Below are positions 91-48,064 of a stretch of DNA of 48,088 bases, in pieces. The stretch lies in assembly GCA_019115845.1 (NCBI GenBank), contig DXCU01000049.1, forward strand, positions 1-48,088. The letters are read 5' to 3'. The DNA is from Candidatus Rubneribacter avistercoris. GTDB lineage: Bacteria > Actinomycetota > Coriobacteriia > Coriobacteriales > Eggerthellaceae. The position numbers were made by a program, and so were the translations under genes. The notes below the pieces were generated by a model. It had not been told where the DNA came from and did no database searches. It saw only the letters and a list, made by a program, of their open reading frames with translations. Each line of letters opens with the position of its first letter. The stretch's first letter is position 1.

Positions 91-220
91 GTGACAGGAG
101 GACCGTGACAGGAGGACGGGGATAACGTCACATCGGGGCACATCCAGCGTGACAGGAGGACGGGGATAACGTCACATCGGGGCACATCCCGATGTGACGT
201 TATCCCCGTCCTCCTGTCAC
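91..220. repeat. REP-like cluster: partial unit, two 41-bp direct repeats and a 30-bp inverted copy
   Basis: A 13-bp partial unit (91-103) is followed by two identical 41-bp units at 105-145 and 149-189, both beginning GTGACAGGAGGACGGGGATA. An exact inverted copy of the first 30 bases lies at 191-220, so 149-178 and 191-220 can form a perfect 30-bp stem with a 12-nt loop. Each unit also carries terminal GTGAC/GTCAC. The cluster lies just 3' of the ABC-F gene. The architecture resembles REP/BIME elements mobilised by RAYT transposases (inference); no transposase is in the window. Confidence 0.85.
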
Positions 221-234
221 GAACGGAAGCGCAC

Positions 235-2079: not shown

Positions 2080-2553
2080 GCCGCTCCGTCCGTCGTCGCC
2101 ATCGTTCGCAGGCGATTATAGCGCACGGCGGGCTTGCGCTTCATCCCCGGCACGCGCGGCAAGGCACGAAACGCCCTCTGCCGCTGTCGCAGAAACGTCG
2201 GAGGTTCGGCCGAGAAGGCAGTCGCTCCCTGCCAAACCGCCGCTGGCACGGGCTGCGCGAAGCGGCGCGCAGGACCCTGCGCCCGCAGGTTGGCCACAAA
2301 CCGCGCCCTGTGGCACGCGCGGGGCCGCCTTCCCGCCCTCCGTGCCCCTCGCATCTGGAGAAACACCAGGTCGCGGGAATTGCGCGATCCGCCAACCCGC
2401 CGAATCAGCCGCTCGGAGTGCCACAGGGCGCGGTTTGCGACCAACCTGCGGGCGGCCCTTCGCCGCACCGCTGGCGGCGGGGGCCGCATCAACGCCGTCC
2501 AACGTGGAGGCGGGCGACCCCGCCTCCACCCCCGCCGAAACGGGCGTCACATC
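2080..2553. other. 474-bp intergenic region containing an inverted-repeat element
   Basis: There is no credible gene here. Most of the region is GC-rich and is occupied by the first copy of a 163-bp inverted-repeat element (2286-2448) with its conserved 5' flank (about 2223-2251). It separates the ABC-F gene from the ABC-2 exporter operon, both on the minus strand. Confidence 0.6.
2286..2448. repeat. 163-bp inverted-repeat element, copy 1
   Basis: The 31-bp arms lie at 2286-2316 and 2418-2448 and match at 29 of 31 positions. They enclose 101 bp. The second copy at 45457-45619 has exactly the same length, the same 31-bp arms, and an interior identical at about 78 of 101 positions with no gaps. 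At the arm tip this copy has CAGG/CCTG where copy 2 has CAAG/CTTG, so the base pair is kept. It looks like a MITE/REP-type element or a conserved structured RNA; no ORF of note is inside. Confidence 0.85.
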
Positions 2554-3759
2554 CTACAAGGGCAGATCACGCTTGCAAAACCGCACGGCACCCGCTACGT
2601 AGGCCACGGCGGCAACGCCCGCAAGCGCGCACAGCTTCCACGCGAAAGCGTAGTCCACGGCAGCCGTCCCCACGGTGGCCAACGCATCGGTGTCGTACAA
2701 ACCCACGAGCGTCAGGTTGTTGAACACCCCCAGCGCCTCCACGCCCATGCCGATGTCCACTAAATTGGGCGAGCCGAAAATCCCCAGAAGCGACGCCAGG
2801 AAAAACCACACCGCCAAGCCGCCGCCGAATGCAAGGGAGGCCCCGGAGCGGTTGAACACGCAGCTGCCGAAATAGCACAGCCCCGCCACAGCCTCCACCA
2901 GGAGGTACATCCCCACGTACAGAGCCAAGATGCCCGCCGCGTTCGTTTCCGGATACAGCGCGTTGGTGGAGGCGATGCGCGCAACGCACGCAATGGCGCA
3001 CAGCACCAGCGGCACCACCAGCATAAAGAGCATCTGAGTGAAAGCCACGGCGCGGCGCTTCGTGGGCGTGGACAGCAGATACGCCATCGAGCCGCGATCC
3101 ACCTTGTCCACCACCAGCGAATTCGCCAACAGCACCACCAGCAGGAACACGGGCAAAAGCCCCGTCCCGGTGAAGTACATGGAGTTGAGCAGCGCGTCGG
3201 GGTCCATCTCCTCCATGGTGTCCATGAGGCCCATGTCCACGCCGGCAATGCCCAGCATGGTGTCCATCATGGTTTCCAGATCAAGCTCGTCGCCGCTGAA
3301 CACGCCGGTGCTTTGGGCCAGGGCGTAGGCGTACTCGAACTGCCGCACGTAATCGTCAAGCGGCACGTCGGAACGCCCCAGATCGTCGATAGCCTCTTGG
3401 AAGCCCTGCACGCTCAAATCCTCGCCTATGCTCTGGGACAGCAGGTTAAACGCCTGCTCGTACGCGTCGCGATCGCCTCCTTGGGCGAAATCCCCATAGG
3501 AAAGGTTCGCCTGGGTCATCGCGTCGTAGGCCGCAAGCGCCCCCAGGTACACGTAGAACTCCTCCTGCTCCTCGCTGTAGTCCTCGCTCCCTCCCGCCGT
3601 GGCGGACATCATGCTGCCGGCAAAGTTCATGACCACGCACATCAGCACCATGATAACGGCGATGACCAGGCACAGCGCCCAATTCGCCTTCAAGTTTTGC
3701 CCAAAGAGCGGCCCGGAGAACACGCCCGTCACCTTGCCCGTTTCCCGCGTCTGTCCCAT
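2554..3759 (-). CDS. ABC-2 type transporter permease
   Basis: Integral membrane protein of 401 residues. One helix lies at about 28-48, followed by a ~150-residue acidic extracytoplasmic loop and then five more hydrophobic segments (about 197-215, 240-262, 277-297, 308-326, 372-392). This is a typical ABC-2 exporter half. The ATG (3759) follows the stop of the upstream ATPase gene by one base (TAG-C-ATG), so it is translationally coupled and is the last gene of a three-gene operon. The substrate is unknown; efflux of a drug, peptide or lipid is the family norm. A TetR gene reads away from the other end of the operon. Confidence 0.8.
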   Translation of the reverse strand: MGQTRETGKVTGVFSGPLFGQNLKANWALCLVIAVIMVLMCVVMNFAGSMMSATAGGSEDYSEEQEEFYVYLGALAAYDAMTQANLSYGDFAQGGDRDAYEQAFNLLSQSIGEDLSVQGFQEAIDDLGRSDVPLDDYVRQFEYAYALAQSTGVFSGDELDLETMMDTMLGIAGVDMGLMDTMEEMDPDALLNSMYFTGTGLLPVFLLVVLLANSLVVDKVDRGSMAYLLSTPTKRRAVAFTQMLFMLVVPLVLCAIACVARIASTNALYPETNAAGILALYVGMYLLVEAVAGLCYFGSCVFNRSGASLAFGGGLAVWFFLASLLGIFGSPNLVDIGMGVEALGVFNNLTLVGLYDTDALATVGTAAVDYAFAWKLCALAGVAAVAYVAGAVRFCKRDLPL

Positions 3760-3760
3760 G

Positions 3761-4810
3761 CTATTCCGCTCCTTGATCGTATGCCTGCAAGAAGATGTCC
3801 TCCAACGTGGCCCGCCGCTCCGAAAGCGCCGTCAGGCCGCAGCCATCAAGCGCCTGAAACAGCTCCGCGGTCTGAGATGCCTGCACCGCCACCTGGCGCG
3901 TCACCTGGCCGGTCGGCTGCGCATCCGACGGTCGCCCGCCCAATGGCTGCGCCTCTGACGACCGCGCACCCGAAAACCGCCCGCCCGGAAAACGGCGGTC
4001 GAACTCCTCCGCCTGCCAAGCGGTGGCGAACTCAAGCGCGTAGCGCCGCGTCTGGCTGCGGCGTAACTCGTCCAAATCCACCACGCCGATGACGCGCCCG
4101 TCCCTGATCATGGCCACGCGGTCGCACACCTCCTCCATCTCCTCGAAGATGTGGCTGGACATGAACACCGTGTGCCCGGCTTCCTTTTCCGCGCGCACCA
4201 GGTCCAAAAACGCATCGCGCATAAGGGGGTCCAGACCCGTGGTGGGCTCGTCCAAGATCAGCACGTCGCGCCGGGCCATGAGCGCCGCCGCGATGGCTGT
4301 TTTCTGCTTCATGCCCTTGCTCATGCGCTTCAGATTGGCGGTGGGGTCAAGCTGCAGCGCCTCTATCACGCGGTTCATGTAGGAAAAGTCGGTCACGCCC
4401 AGGTGGCGGGCCTGCGACTTCAAAAACTCCACGCCGGTGCGCAGGTCGGGAAACGCCACTTCGCCGGGGATGTAGCTCACTGCGAGCATGTTGTGCGCTG
4501 CGTGCGTCCAGCAGTCGCTGCCGCACAGTTCAGCGGTGCCGGCGGTGGGCTTGATAAAGCCCATGAGCGCGCGGATGGTGGTGGTTTTGCCCGAGCCGTT
4601 GGTGCCCACGTAGCCGAACACCTCGCCTTTGCGCACCTCCAGGTCAACGTCGAAGATGCCGCGGTCGCAGCCGTAGTCTTTGGTGAGCCCTTTCGTGCGG
4701 ATGACCGCATCGTCGGACGCGCAGACGGAAGCCGCGCTTGTGGGGTCCAGCGCGCAGGCGGGAGCCGCGCTCGCAAGGCCCAGCGGGCGCGCGGGAGTCA
4801 AACCGCTCAT
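3761..4810 (-). CDS. ABC transporter ATP-binding protein (second of two in operon)
   Basis: ABC ATPase of 349 residues with Walker A GTNGSGKTT, a variant signature RMSKGMKQK, Walker B LILDEPTTGLD and the switch histidine in MSSHIFEEM. It should energise the adjacent ABC-2 permease. It starts at the ATG that overlaps the upstream stop (ATGA). Two stretches are unusual: about 33 residues of A/P/S-rich sequence before the first beta strand, and a Gly/Ser/Gln/Pro-rich linker (about residues 270-310) in the C-terminal part with internal repetition. These look like expanded low-complexity inserts and are not needed for ATPase function. Confidence 0.85.
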   Translation of the reverse strand: MSGLTPARPLGLASAAPACALDPTSAASVCASDDAVIRTKGLTKDYGCDRGIFDVDLEVRKGEVFGYVGTNGSGKTTTIRALMGFIKPTAGTAELCGSDCWTHAAHNMLAVSYIPGEVAFPDLRTGVEFLKSQARHLGVTDFSYMNRVIEALQLDPTANLKRMSKGMKQKTAIAAALMARRDVLILDEPTTGLDPLMRDAFLDLVRAEKEAGHTVFMSSHIFEEMEEVCDRVAMIRDGRVIGVVDLDELRRSQTRRYALEFATAWQAEEFDRRFPGGRFSGARSSEAQPLGGRPSDAQPTGQVTRQVAVQASQTAELFQALDGCGLTALSERRATLEDIFLQAYDQGAE

Positions 4811-5721
4811 GAGGCCACCCCCTCAAACCGCTTGTCCTCTTTGTAGAACTGCATGAAGTAGTCCTCCAGCGTGAAAGGTATCTCCTGGAAATCGTAGGGT
4901 TTGAGCGCCGCCAGGTCGCGTGCGAAAGATCCCACTTCCTCGGGCAGCACGCGCACGCGCACCGAACGGGCCTTCGCACTGGACGACGCCACCGCATACC
5001 CGCGCTCAAAAAACGCCGCAAACGACGCGTCGTCGGCGAAGGTCACCTTGAAGATGGAGCCGCTTTCGCGTTTGAGCTGCACCGGGTCGAAATGCGCCGC
5101 CAAGCGCCCGTCTTTGATGATGGCGATGCGGTCGCAGGTTGCGTCCACCTCGTGAAAGATGTGCGAGGAGAGGAAGATGGTCTTGCCGCGCGCCTTCTCC
5201 TCGCGGATGTAGGCGATGAACGCCCGCTGCATGATGGGGTCAAGGCCGCTGGTGGGTTCGTCGAGCACCAGCACGTCGGGGTCGTGCATGAAGGCGACCA
5301 CCACCGCGAGCTTGCGTTTCGTTCCCAAGCTCATGGACTTCGTGTCCACATGCGGATCCAGCTCGAAGCGCTCCAGCAGCCGGTCGCAGTGCTCCAGGGA
5401 GTCCATGCGCCGCATGCGGGCCATCATGCGCAAAAACGCCGATCCAGTCATGCCCTCGGGCAGCGCGATCTCGCCCGGCAGATAGCCGATGGACGCCTGC
5501 AAAGCGGCGGCGTTTCGCCAGCAATCCAGCCCGCGCACCCGGGCGCGCCCGGCATCGGGGTGGGAAAACCCCATGAGGTGACGGATGAGCGTGGTTTTGC
5601 CTGCGCCGTTAGGACCCAGGAAACCGAAGCATTCCCCCTGATCAACCTTCAAGCTGACATCGAATACGCCGCGGCCGTGGCCGTAGTCCTTGGTCAGGCT
5701 ATCGACTTCTATAACGGCCAA
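4807..5721 (-). CDS. ABC transporter ATP-binding protein (first gene of operon)
   Basis: ABC ATPase of 304 residues: Walker A GPNGAGKTT, degenerate signature MSLGTKRKL, Walker B LVLDEPTSGLD and switch histidine LSSHIFHE. I chose the TTG at 5721 because AAAGGAGG sits four to five bases upstream and the fold begins at once (AVIEVDSLTKDYG). The upstream in-frame ATG at 5796 would add 25 residues with no family similarity and no RBS. Having two different ATPases with one permease suggests a heterodimeric engine. Its 5' region is shared with the divergent TetR gene, a likely repressor of this operon. Confidence 0.85.
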   Translation of the reverse strand: MAVIEVDSLTKDYGHGRGVFDVSLKVDQGECFGFLGPNGAGKTTLIRHLMGFSHPDAGRARVRGLDCWRNAAALQASIGYLPGEIALPEGMTGSAFLRMMARMRRMDSLEHCDRLLERFELDPHVDTKSMSLGTKRKLAVVVAFMHDPDVLVLDEPTSGLDPIMQRAFIAYIREEKARGKTIFLSSHIFHEVDATCDRIAIIKDGRLAAHFDPVQLKRESGSIFKVTFADDASFAAFFERGYAVASSSAKARSVRVRVLPEEVGSFARDLAALKPYDFQEIPFTLEDYFMQFYKEDKRFEGVAS

Positions 5722-5762
5722 GGGGCCTCCTTTCGCTCGTGCGCACCCTCGAAAGCGCAGAC

Positions 5763-5860
5763 GCAACGCGAACGCCATGCGCGGATACCCTCGCAACGCG
5801 GAACATCATGCGCGGCAGACACCCTTGCAACGCGAAACGCCATGCGCGGCAGACGCCTTC
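5763..5860. repeat. Three imperfect tandem repeats of about 30-34 bp
   Basis: Units at 5763-5792, 5793-5826 and 5827-5860 each begin GCAACGCG and contain an ATGCGCGG core. They lie in the 5' region between the ABC exporter operon (minus) and tetR (plus), so variation in copy number could change promoter spacing. Confidence 0.7.
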
Positions 5861-5953
5861 TCGCTTGCGCGCCCCTGCGGGCGCGGGCGCGGAATGCTTG
5901 TGCGGATCCACCCATTATCAGCACGCGTTTCGCTAGAATAAAAGAACATAAAC

Positions 5954-5966
5954 GGACAGTCTGACC
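5954..5966. promoter_or_regulatory. Possible TetR operator
   Basis: GGACAGTCTGACC is a 13-bp near-palindrome (GGaCAG-T-CTGaCC, five of six positions symmetric) located 22 bp before the tetR start, in the divergent intergenic region. TetR proteins normally bind such short dyads beside their own gene. It is weak and unproven. Confidence 0.35.
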
Positions 5967-5988
5967 CATTTTCAGCGCAGGAGAAACC

Positions 5989-6609
5989 ATGGCCCGCCCC
6001 CGCAAGGACAGCGACGACCCCTCCGCCAAAGAGCGCATGATGCAGGCGTTCTGGGAAGTGCTCGAAGAAAAGCCCTACGCGCAGATGACCGTGTCCGACA
6101 TAGCGCGCGCGGCGAACGTGCGACGAAACACCTTCTACTACCATTACGCGAACGTCGGAGAACTGGCCGAGCAAGCGATCCGGCAGTACATTCCGCTTGC
6201 CGTCCAGAACATCAACGTTATGCGCTCAGGTGGCCCGGACAGCCACTTCCCGCCCCTCTTCCCGCCCGATGCCCAGGGAAAGATCGCGCTGATAGCAGGG
6301 CCTCATGGCGCCATGGACCTGCTCAACATCGTGAAGAACATCGCCTGGGATCTGTGGGTGAGCGAATTCGGCGTCGACGAGTCCAAGCGTCCCCTGTTCG
6401 AATACGCTATCAGCGGCATGATGGCCGCCAGCTCGTACCTGATGCGCTTCGCTCCCGAGCAAAGAGCCGCATTGCTTGCGAACAGCGATCTGCCGGCCAT
6501 CATGTCCGCAACCCTTCGGCAGATCTCCCCGACCATCCCCTCCTCGCCTACGCAAACAGCGCAAGAGCCGCCACGAACGCCGCCGACGCCAGCACGCTGC
6601 CGGCCATGA
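5989..6609 (+). CDS. TetR family transcriptional regulator
   Basis: Protein of 206 residues. The N-terminal helix-turn-helix spans about 33-54 (MTVSDIARAANV followed by NTFYYHYANVGEL), the classic TetR motif. The C-terminal ligand-binding half is not similar to a named subgroup. AGGAG lies seven to eight bases before the ATG. It is divergent from the three-gene ABC exporter operon ending at 5721, the usual arrangement for a repressor of an efflux system. Its last 62 bp overlap the 3' end of the convergent membrane protein gene (6548-7669). The Pro/Thr-rich C-terminus encoded in the overlap may be a drifted tail. Confidence 0.9.
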   Translation: MARPRKDSDDPSAKERMMQAFWEVLEEKPYAQMTVSDIARAANVRRNTFYYHYANVGELAEQAIRQYIPLAVQNINVMRSGGPDSHFPPLFPPDAQGKIALIAGPHGAMDLLNIVKNIAWDLWVSEFGVDESKRPLFEYAISGMMAASSYLMRFAPEQRAALLANSDLPAIMSATLRQISPTIPSSPTQTAQEPPRTPPTPARCRP

Positions 6610-7669
6610 TGGCCCATGCGGCAGGGCGCGCCCAGTTGACCGTCCAGCCCACGCCGAAGCGCTCGGGCAGAAACAGGCTCGCGTCGTCGGGGTTGCAGTA
6701 GAACACGCCCAGCTTCCAATAGCGATCGTCGTCCACGAGCAGCTCGTCTGTCGCCTGCATGCGCTTGAACACGCGCGAGCCCGCCTGGCCGTACACCGCC
6801 GATATCACGAGGGAGCCTGCAACAAGGGGCAGCGTTGCCACCAACACGACGACGGCCGCCTGCCCAAGCGTGATCGCGCCCAAGGCCGAAAGCTCGAACG
6901 CCAGGCCCACGCACGTTGCCACAAGCACGCCAGACACCAGCAGAAACACGCTTTGAGCACGCGCGAACAGGCCGTAGGCGAGCGCTGATGTGGCCGGGGC
7001 GCCCGGCTCGGACCACTTCTTCGACCGCAGGATGATCCAGTGGGAAAACGCGAAGCACGCGACTAAGAACAGCTGCACGATCACCGGAAACGCCACGACT
7101 CCCGGGCCTTTCGGCTCCCAGCGGTTCACCGTGCCGTCGAAATCCGCATGCAGGGGGATCAGGTCGGGCATATGCGGGTACGCCGCAATGCCGATTGCCG
7201 CCGTCACCAGGATGACCGGCACGTACAGCAGATTCCATTTGAGCGAGATGGCGCGCGGAACGGGCTGCTCGCCCACCACGGCCACCGCCTCCTGGGCCGC
7301 AGCCACCCACCCTTGCTCGCGCTTGTACGCCCTCGTGAGCGAGCGGTAGCGCAGCATGAGGGCGTAACCGCCAACGAGCAGCACAAGCTCGCCGCCTATC
7401 AGGACAACCATCACGCCAGCGCCGTTGCCCGCAAGCGTGCACGCGGCCCCCGCAATCGTGAACACCGCCGTCGCCAGCAAGACGGCGGCCGCATAGCGCC
7501 GTTTGAGCCGCTTGACGAACGGGTCTTGCTGCGCGGACGCGGGCACCGTGACGGCGAACACCTCGCCGCGACGCATGAGGTAGGGAGTGATCGCCGTGAG
7601 GACGCCGGTGAAGGGGACGAACAACGTTGTGATCAGCATCAGAAGCGTCAGGTCGAAGCCCTGCGTCAT
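6548..7669 (-). CDS. DUF1648/DUF5808 multi-pass membrane protein
   Basis: Membrane protein of 373 residues. A central IPLHADFDGTVNRW matches the DUF1648 signature and a C-terminal YWKLGVFYCNPDD with FGVGWTVNWA matches DUF5808. Several hydrophobic segments surround both. The ATG at 7669 overlaps the stop of the GntR gene (ATGA) and has GGAGG six bases upstream; the longer in-frame opening further upstream is Arg-rich and overlaps the GntR gene. Proteins of this type commonly sit beside YtrA-like GntR regulators and are thought to be envelope-stress or signal-related, but the biochemical role is unknown. The 3' end overlaps tetR by 62 bp. Confidence 0.85.
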   Translation of the reverse strand: MTQGFDLTLLMLITTLFVPFTGVLTAITPYLMRRGEVFAVTVPASAQQDPFVKRLKRRYAAAVLLATAVFTIAGAACTLAGNGAGVMVVLIGGELVLLVGGYALMLRYRSLTRAYKREQGWVAAAQEAVAVVGEQPVPRAISLKWNLLYVPVILVTAAIGIAAYPHMPDLIPLHADFDGTVNRWEPKGPGVVAFPVIVQLFLVACFAFSHWIILRSKKWSEPGAPATSALAYGLFARAQSVFLLVSGVLVATCVGLAFELSALGAITLGQAAVVVLVATLPLVAGSLVISAVYGQAGSRVFKRMQATDELLVDDDRYWKLGVFYCNPDDASLFLPERFGVGWTVNWARPAAWAIMAGSVLASAAFVAALALFA

Positions 7670-45097: not shown

Positions 45098-45136
45098 GCA
45101 GCGGGGACGCACGCGGGTTGCCGCGCGCTTGCGCGG

Positions 45137-45330
45137 CGGCATCCTGATCGCACAGCGGCATCCCGCCCTCGCGGCGACATCACGCGCGCTCGCAACGGCA
45201 TCCCGCGTGACTGCGCGGCGCCATCCTGATCGCGCAATGGCATCCCGCTCCTGCAGCGGCATTCCGCTCTCGCGGCGGCATCACGCGCACTAGCAGCGGC
45301 ATCCCAGTCGTGCAGCGGAATCCCTCGCCC
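45137..45330. repeat. Degenerate tandem array, about ten units of 19-23 bp
   Basis: Units start CGGCATCC or a near variant and are 19, 19, 21, 23, 19, 19, 19, 21, 19 bp long, with the last fading out. Units 1-4 and 5-8 resemble each other in order, suggesting one larger duplication. It lies just after the dmsC-like gene. Spacing is too short and sequences too similar throughout to be CRISPR. Confidence 0.75.
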
Positions 45331-45456
45331 TCTGCCAAACCAGCGTTGGCACGGACCCCGCCGAAGGCGGCGCGGCGAGGGATGACCTGGCCCGCGTTGG
45401 CGGCGGCTCGCGCGACAGGCCGGCCCGCCGCACCGCCGGCGGCGAAGGGGCAGTCG

Positions 45457-45619
45457 CAAGTTGGTCACAAACCGCGCCCTGTGGCACGCGCGGGGCCGGT
45501 TTCGCGCCCTCCGCGCCCCTCGCGCCCGGAGAATCCCCAGGTCGCGGAAATCGCGCGGTCCACCGGCGTGCCGGATCGGCCGCCTCGCGTGCCACAGGGC
45601 GCGGTTTGTGACCAACTTG
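45457..45619. repeat. 163-bp inverted-repeat element, copy 2
   Basis: The 31-bp arms (45457-45487 and 45589-45619) are perfectly complementary, enclosing 101 bp. Same length as copy 1 at 2286-2448, and orientation is the same. A flank block with CTGCCAAACC and TGGCACGG (about 45325-45354) also precedes copy 1, but at a different distance. Confidence 0.88.
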
Positions 45620-47875: not shown

Positions 47876-47973
47876 GTTTCCCCAGGCGCGAAGACGCTGG
47901 CGTCCGCTGTTAAACCGCCGTTAGAACGAACCGGCGTTTGCCGGATCTCGGGCCGGACCTTCCCTGGCCGGGC

Positions 47974-48064
47974 GCCGGGCAAGGCCCTCCCCGCCTGACG
48001 GGTGGGGTTTTGCCCGGCGAGCCGGCCTGGCCTCTGTCAATCCTGTTTTAACAGAGAGACCGGC
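47974..48064 (+). ncRNA. Structured RNA candidate at right end
   Basis: GCCGGGCAA (47974-47982) pairs with TTGCCCGGC (48010-48018) around an inner CCCCGCC/GG..GGGG stem. Next to it GCCGG (48021-48025) with CCGGC (48060-48064) encloses CTCTGT/ACAGAG (48032-48037, 48051-48056). Two stable stems side by side suggest a leader or terminator for a gene beyond the edge. No riboswitch class could be matched. Confidence 0.35.

Follow-up and report, generated by a model that had tools for sequence, protein, structure and literature searches.

Inverted protein sites arranged around an internal, phased bending site are known from the hix sites with their Fis enhancer in Hin/Gin inversion and from P1 parS with IHF, which are single loci located beside recombinase or partition genes. 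The gal operators of Escherichia coli, for their part, lie about 11 turns apart. In the gal repressosome of this bacterium, two GalR operators are combined with HU at the apex of the loop (PMC4693257). The RIB/RIP (BIME-1) elements of E. coli consist of two inverted REPs around an IHF site (PMC2817692, citing Boccard and Prentki 1993). Among the short repeats of bacterial genomes, MITEs have been reviewed (PMC10969869) and the BOX/RUP repeats of pneumococcus have been described (PMC3049150).

The 163-bp repeat that is the subject of this analysis occurs twice in the window, that is, the whole stretch of 48,088 nucleotides that was analysed, from Candidatus Rubneribacter avistercoris, and apparently belongs to a widespread and previously undescribed kind of DNA site. 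Like RIB/RIP, these sites are intergenic and multicopy, with inverted arms around a centre that is bound by a bending protein in RIB/RIP and putatively so here; however, their arms, which measure about 26 bp and are not REPs, vary from one family to the next inside a single genome, no IHF-like consensus was noted in the GC-rich centre (AAACCCCAGGTCGCG), the phasing follows a strict period of 10.35 bp, and the bacterial phylum is unrelated. As in the gal repressosome, two outer sites surround a centre at a helix-respecting spacing, with a bending protein that is known for gal and would be expected here, but gal is one locus controlling one operon, whereas the present sites are found in many copies per genome with arms that differ by family. 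Because of their non-REP arms, the absence of an evident IHF site, their many copies and their diversifying arm families, the phased sites belong to neither the gal repressosome nor the RIB class. They have inverted sites and an internal phased site in common with hix and P1 parS, in many copies instead of as single loci and with no recombinase or partition genes noted beside them. Like MITEs, they are short, non-coding and intergenic with inverted ends, and a MITE with an 8-bp target-site duplication (TSD) serves as carrier of the 163-bp family; unlike MITEs, the core lacks a TSD of its own, and most copies with the same arms differ in their interiors. They also resemble BOX/RUP as modular, multicopy intergenic repeats within one lineage, although no sequence is shared, and we know of no helically phased three-part plan in BOX/RUP.

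The earlier note on this DNA had described two copies of 163 bp each with about 77% interior identity and no indels. Both copies were found at the expected positions, and remeasurement gave an identity of 83% overall and of 77.2% over positions 32-132, again without indels. The features of the window are the following.

2229..2251, plus strand: MITE-type terminal repeat CTGCCAAACCGCCGCTGGCACGG, left end of the composite holding copy 1
2286..2448, plus strand: copy 1 of the 163-bp element (core), its orientation set by the central motif
2286..2316, plus strand: left arm of copy 1, 31 bp, with outward pairing reaching 2280
2362..2375, plus strand: central motif of copy 1, AACACCAGGTCGCG
2418..2448, minus strand: right arm of copy 1, with outward pairing reaching 2454
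2484..2506, minus strand: degenerate right terminal repeat of the copy 1 composite, recognised by eye in the sequence
45332..45354, plus strand: MITE-type terminal repeat CTGCCAAACCAGCGTTGGCACGG, left of copy 2
45457..45619, plus strand: copy 2 of the 163-bp element (core)
45457..45487, plus strand: left arm of copy 2, 31/31 positions paired
45533..45546, plus strand: central motif of copy 2, ATCCCCAGGTCGCG
45589..45619, minus strand: right arm of copy 2
47907..48054, no strand assigned: 148-bp MITE of the carrier family at the contig end, with the same terminal repeats and without the core

The arms pair at 29/31 positions in copy 1, where pairing extends to 37 bp, and at 31/31 in copy 2. The central motif of copy 1 lies 45 bp from the left arm and 42 bp from the right one, a difference of 3 that corresponds to an allowed phase. 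The change at the arm tips that had been noticed between the copies (CAGG/CCTG against CAAG/CTTG, with pairing kept) is real and falls at positions 3/161. The compensatory character attributed to it extends to the whole family, since double-sided changes affect 11 of the 29 arm pairs and 51 cells, against 13 cells in shuffles, in 43 copies; 96% of the arm cells in the 43 aligned copies are paired. Further copies and covariation, on which the earlier note had staked its reading, are thus both present. The element was also said to fit no known family, and this still holds: Rfam gave no match in the window, and no published description of these elements was found in the open-access literature (subscription journals were outside the search). 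The gene adjoining copy 1 has no close orthologue.

In the genome from which the window comes (G000, a 3.2-Mb assembly), BLAST and an arm-pattern search identify about 43-45 intergenic copies of the 163-bp family; same-genome BLAST yields 102 matches, ~40 of which are separate copies, a number well above what chance would give. In the arm-pattern list, almost every pair has its arms exactly 120 bp apart, four pairs have other spacings, and a few copies are truncated or located at contig ends. Among 38 exact-length copies the mean pairwise identity is 0.82, and C>T changes equal G>A changes in copies of the family. With gene calls based on a home-made codon score on draft contigs, all copies are intergenic but one, which overlaps a weak predicted ORF, and no orientation preference is seen. 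A coding sequence was considered and rejected, given the lack of codon periodicity and a length not divisible by 3; 37/38 copies leave one frame open, but only a small number of its codons could become a stop by a single change. In 24 composites with the carrier MITE, the core is 84% identical with 0 indels in 276 pairs, and the adjacent 35-bp spacer reaches an identity of 67%, 91% of its pairs differing by indels. Changes in core length are forbidden by some constraint. The exact length of the repeat is explained because the arms and the centre must stay in helical register, and therefore the copies tolerate substitutions but almost no indels. By BLAST, G001, of the same genus, has one copy and G002 none, and family-level DNA BLAST returned full-length relatives only in the own genome and G001. 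The arm pattern gave a single, apparently chance match in 84,980 species genomes (the own genome left out) and none in viral contigs, and no 163-bp element was found in plasmids and phages.

Since distant relatives are missed by DNA BLAST, a covariance model was needed, and it was built from 43 copies. The scan of family genomes with such a model, as the earlier note had proposed, identified relatives in 36 of 137 genomes and in 19/48 genera of the taxonomic family, each genome holding at least the number of copies detected in the scan, in which up to 21 candidates per genome were scored. The loci of these relatives display long, near-perfect inverted arms of ~26 bp whose sequences are quite different between families, as illustrated by TTGGCCACGAAACCGCGTTCTGGCACG in G001/G002, GTGGCCAAAAAAGACGACCTGACGAC in G060/G061/G063, TGGACGCAAAACGGCACCCATGACAAT in G054/G055/G057 and TAGCACAAAATCACGGTTAAGAACGATTTT in G001, in units of 120-200 bp with loops of 60-120 bp. 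Despite these differing arms, the loop-centre motif AAACCCCAGGTCGCG is kept across families. Nearly all relatives have the motif GRRAAACCCCAGGTCGCGAAAA near the loop centre, and in its logo conservation reaches 99-100% at the final two C, at the first G that follows and at the T. The degenerate consensus derived for the arms, TGGCNNAAAA-N9-TTTTGGCA, hints that each of them might itself be a dyad of two half-sites. Within same-arm families the arms are 86-93% identical and most loops are near random (59-66% identity versus 54-58% in shuffled sequences). Loops stay near shuffled identity in 5/8 arm families, the exceptions being the 163-bp family, the G022 TGGACA family and the TAGCAC family, with loops 69-80% identical. 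In the set derived from the covariance model, 93 of 94 elements are intergenic; their neighbours include no convincing recurring gene, only large common families being seen on inspection, and Rfam applied to nine relatives' loci matched only a tRNA.

The covariance model contains the motif, and for this reason inverted repeats were also scanned without it, in 800 kb of two other genomes (G057 and G022). This motif-blind scan detected 44 inverted repeats, against 0 in the dinucleotide-shuffled control. The most enriched 7-mer of their loops, CCCAGGT, is present in 22/44 of them (21-fold), and its relaxed form CCWGRTS in 36/44 versus 12% of random windows. As many as 41/44 repeats are intergenic though 87% of the sequence is coding, and the set is phased (R 0.82, p 2e-11). 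The excess of convergent gaps in the model-derived set (26 versus 10 divergent) was not upheld in the unbiased sample: the 44 repeats have no preference for convergent or divergent gaps, and placement therefore gives no functional clue. The scan suggests a density of ~200 such inverted repeats per 3.9-Mb genome, a rough figure because the G057 sample was partly chosen at known elements.

The relation between arms and centre was measured as the left minus the right arm-to-motif distance (L-R), a quantity that is independent of the inward reach of arm pairing. L-R clusters near -29, -18, -8, 2.5, 12.7 and 23.4, with individual values of -30 to -28, -18, -8/-7, 2/3, 12-14 and 23/24 and one exception in 86. 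The best period is 10.35 bp (Rayleigh R=0.926, n=86, p~1e-32), so that the spacing is periodic with the B-DNA helix, as is characteristic of looped nucleoproteins. Taking one random element per genome (n=25) gives a mean R of 0.94; with a single element kept for each arm family and class (n=46), R is 0.955. More than one phase class is present in 12 of 22 arm families, and loop lengths of same-arm elements step by ~10 bp, about one turn (92/102/112; 89/99/110; 102/112-114; 98-99/109). Conserved arms with unrelated loops and turn-wise loop steps are not producible by shared descent; such a pattern can arise when proteins occupy a fixed face of B-form DNA. The 10.35-bp phasing speaks for protein-folded double-stranded DNA and not for an RNA.

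We consider it probable that the 163-bp palindrome represents one family, amplified in recent times, within a broader class of double-stranded DNA sites, built of three phased parts and organised as a looped nucleoprotein. The three-part architecture comes with covarying arms, a conserved centre, phasing, intergenic placement, several families per genome and carriage by a MITE; from these sequences we infer protein binding, loop formation and the purpose of the sites. In the proposed mechanism, the two inverted ~26-bp arms would be read by a putative family-specific DNA-binding factor and the asymmetric central motif RAAACCCCAGGTCGCG by a putative factor shared throughout the bacterial family, with the two arms required on a fixed helix face relative to the centre. 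The bound proteins would touch and bend the 60-120 bp of DNA into a small loop, with the gal repressosome (GalR-HU-GalR) and the REP-IHF-REP (RIB) elements of E. coli as proposed analogues. Such loops may contribute to chromosome micro-architecture, to insulation between genes or act as the cis-site of a selfish element. Template-switch correction between inverted repeats could account for part of the coupling of the arms inside an element, and some conservation of the 163-bp family, which spread within a MITE, may reflect copying. A more detailed version, to which we give even chances, is that of an undescribed class of chromosomal DNA sites, numbering tens to perhaps two hundred per genome across the bacterial family, at which lineage- or element-specific proteins on fast-diversifying arm pairs and one conserved centre protein would form phased micro-loops, either as a chromosome-folding module or as a selfish element using a host bending protein. 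It is rare for sequence alone to yield so sharp a signature of helical phase, here across 25 genomes, and this signature would imply that proteins at three sites meet on one DNA face in many copies per genome. The arms and the centre are usable as bait for finding the binding proteins. Should the loops serve to organise the chromosome or to insulate genes, common gut bacteria would have an architectural system not known so far; selfish loops would be a new way of building a tiny mobile element.

At the level of mobility, most 163-bp copies are flanked by a 23-bp motif, CTGYTRAACCNNSRTTGRCAYRG, with 151 matches in G000, 110 in G001 and 37 in G002, which is the terminal repeat of a MITE family. 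This carrier MITE, with its CTGTTAAACC terminal inverted repeats, has a most frequent length of 148 bp in G000 and of about 168 bp when the genomes are pooled. Its left and right outer flanks match in a single register (offset 16, positions 5-12), and the target duplication is 8 bp long, behind 4 end bases. The signal of this duplication reaches z 11.4 for 99 elements and z 6.5 for 17 core-containing ones, three of which (L005, L024 and L093) have perfect 8/8 duplications. In the composite, the terminal repeat is followed by a ~34-bp spacer, the 163-bp core, a ~12-bp spacer and the second terminal repeat, often with another MITE nested in it or adjacent to it. The carrier MITE also occurs without the core, and the core outside the carrier MITE. 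The earlier suggestion of a MITE is therefore right in that the core rides here in a composite with terminal inverted repeats and an 8-bp TSD, but it does not extend to the core, which has no duplication of its own: directly outside the arms of the core and its relatives no consistent signal was detected at offsets 2-35 in 43 elements, and copies of one arm family mostly have no shared interior, those of the 163-bp and TAGCAC families being exceptions. No transposase with terminal repeats matching the carrier MITE ends was found, nor any long autonomous copy between terminal repeats; IS6, ISL3, IS4-type and Y1 transposases were considered as partners and are absent or without matching ends.

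These data bear on the possibility, which we regard as rather unlikely, that the elements are non-autonomous transposons in which the arms are terminal repeats of many transposases and the centre is a host-factor site joining the ends. A host factor that brings the ends together over short DNA would explain the helical phasing, as DNA so short needs phased bending, and ~26-bp arms, multiple copies at unrelated sites, genome-specific arm families and the movement of the window copies inside TSD-flanked units all fit such an origin. However, none of the tested offsets shows a target duplication beyond the arms, the interiors of most same-arm copies are unrelated, which is not expected from copying, no transposase with these ends was found, and the carrier MITE exists without the core. 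Arms as transposon ends are disfavoured, a mechanism leaving no duplication being still compatible.

Several observations concern the MITEs themselves. Arrays of CTGTTAAACC MITEs separated by an identical short spacer (a shared target duplication) are found in L161 (G001 C115) 3658-6717 and L131 1338-1666, which suggests tandem amplification or repeated insertion at the element edge. Minimal members of 63-72 bp, with almost only two terminal repeats and a GC-rich hairpin, are located at L132:1164-1235 and L135 near 1615-1676. The window genome holds further arm families, among them GGCGAGAAATCACCGAAATCGGAA, with 20 copies in the loci examined, mainly in G000 and some in G001 (for example L018:1273-1424 and L133:1420-1569 in G000; L032:1205-1366 in G001) and L-R distances of -18, -8, 2 and 14; it is the second abundant three-part family in G000 and is very often next to CTGTTAAACC MITEs.

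Inversion of the DNA between the arms is improbable as an explanation. Hix-like arms with an internal enhancer, or invertons, would flip the short interior, and the imperfect dyads of the ~26-bp inverted arms, the conserved in-phase internal motif and the occurrence of flank types in either order around the core in G000 (read by eye) recall such sites; against this, three orthologous element pairs between species have the same orientation in each, no promoter-like content is linked to flanking genes, and the loops are unrelated.

Regarding the structured RNA that the earlier note had considered, an intergenic transcript made of a 30-bp stem and a conserved loop now appears very improbable. The arms do covary in 43 copies and the full element folds better than controls, but the arms are responsible for it: on neither strand does the interior fold better than versions with permuted columns or random substitutions (z about 0). 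G.U cells slightly outnumber A.C cells (54 to 32, p 0.02), a difference that weakens when events are counted (43 to 31, p 0.2) and gives no clear asymmetry. Furthermore, the loops are unrelated except for the motif, the spacing has the B-DNA period, and there is neither an orientation bias relative to genes nor an Rfam match. The palindromic REP variant suggested at the same time was likewise abandoned, as the size and architecture are not those of REP; palindromic units of 20-40 bp with a flanked RAYT, which mark REP/BIME, are missing, the Y1/RAYT-like gene having no such flanks. Single-copy RAYT-like Y1 transposases of 257 and 272 aa are present in L173 (G000 C78) and L172 (G002 C72), respectively, with no recognisable flank repeats.

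Finally, an ordinary MITE or BIME-like mosaic, with the similarity between genera as an artefact of the covariance model, is scarcely credible: the carrier is an ordinary MITE with an 8-bp TSD and the genome is rich in mosaic repeats, but the motif-blind scan contradicts it by recovering the same motif and phasing in two other genomes without the model.

Other repeats were observed in the same sequences. At window positions 92-221, a 34-bp unit, CGTGACAGGAGGACGGGGATAACGTCACATCGGG, occurs in two direct copies and one inverted copy, the units forming a perfect 34-bp hairpin with a 50-bp loop and without the central motif. A degenerate tandem repeat with a unit of ~20-25 bp (GCGGCATCCCG...) occupies window positions 45110-45330, directly upstream of the copy 2 composite. 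In G022 and G057, a further repeat resembling GGATCCTTCGACTCGCTTCGCTCGCTCAGGATG lies beside several elements, in the flanks of L275, L301 and L311. It is also worth mentioning that TGTTTCACGTGAAACA, the consensus of ParB sites, occurs dozens of times in the 800 kb of G057 and G022 (L337-L376, for example L363:3267 and L372:12756), perfectly or with 1-2 changes, and is seen in L273, L297 and L302 as well. Closely spaced pairs of these sites are frequent, and several sites lie immediately next to phased elements. Genomes usually have a handful of parS sites near the origin, and the TGTTTCACGTGAAACA count is far above that.
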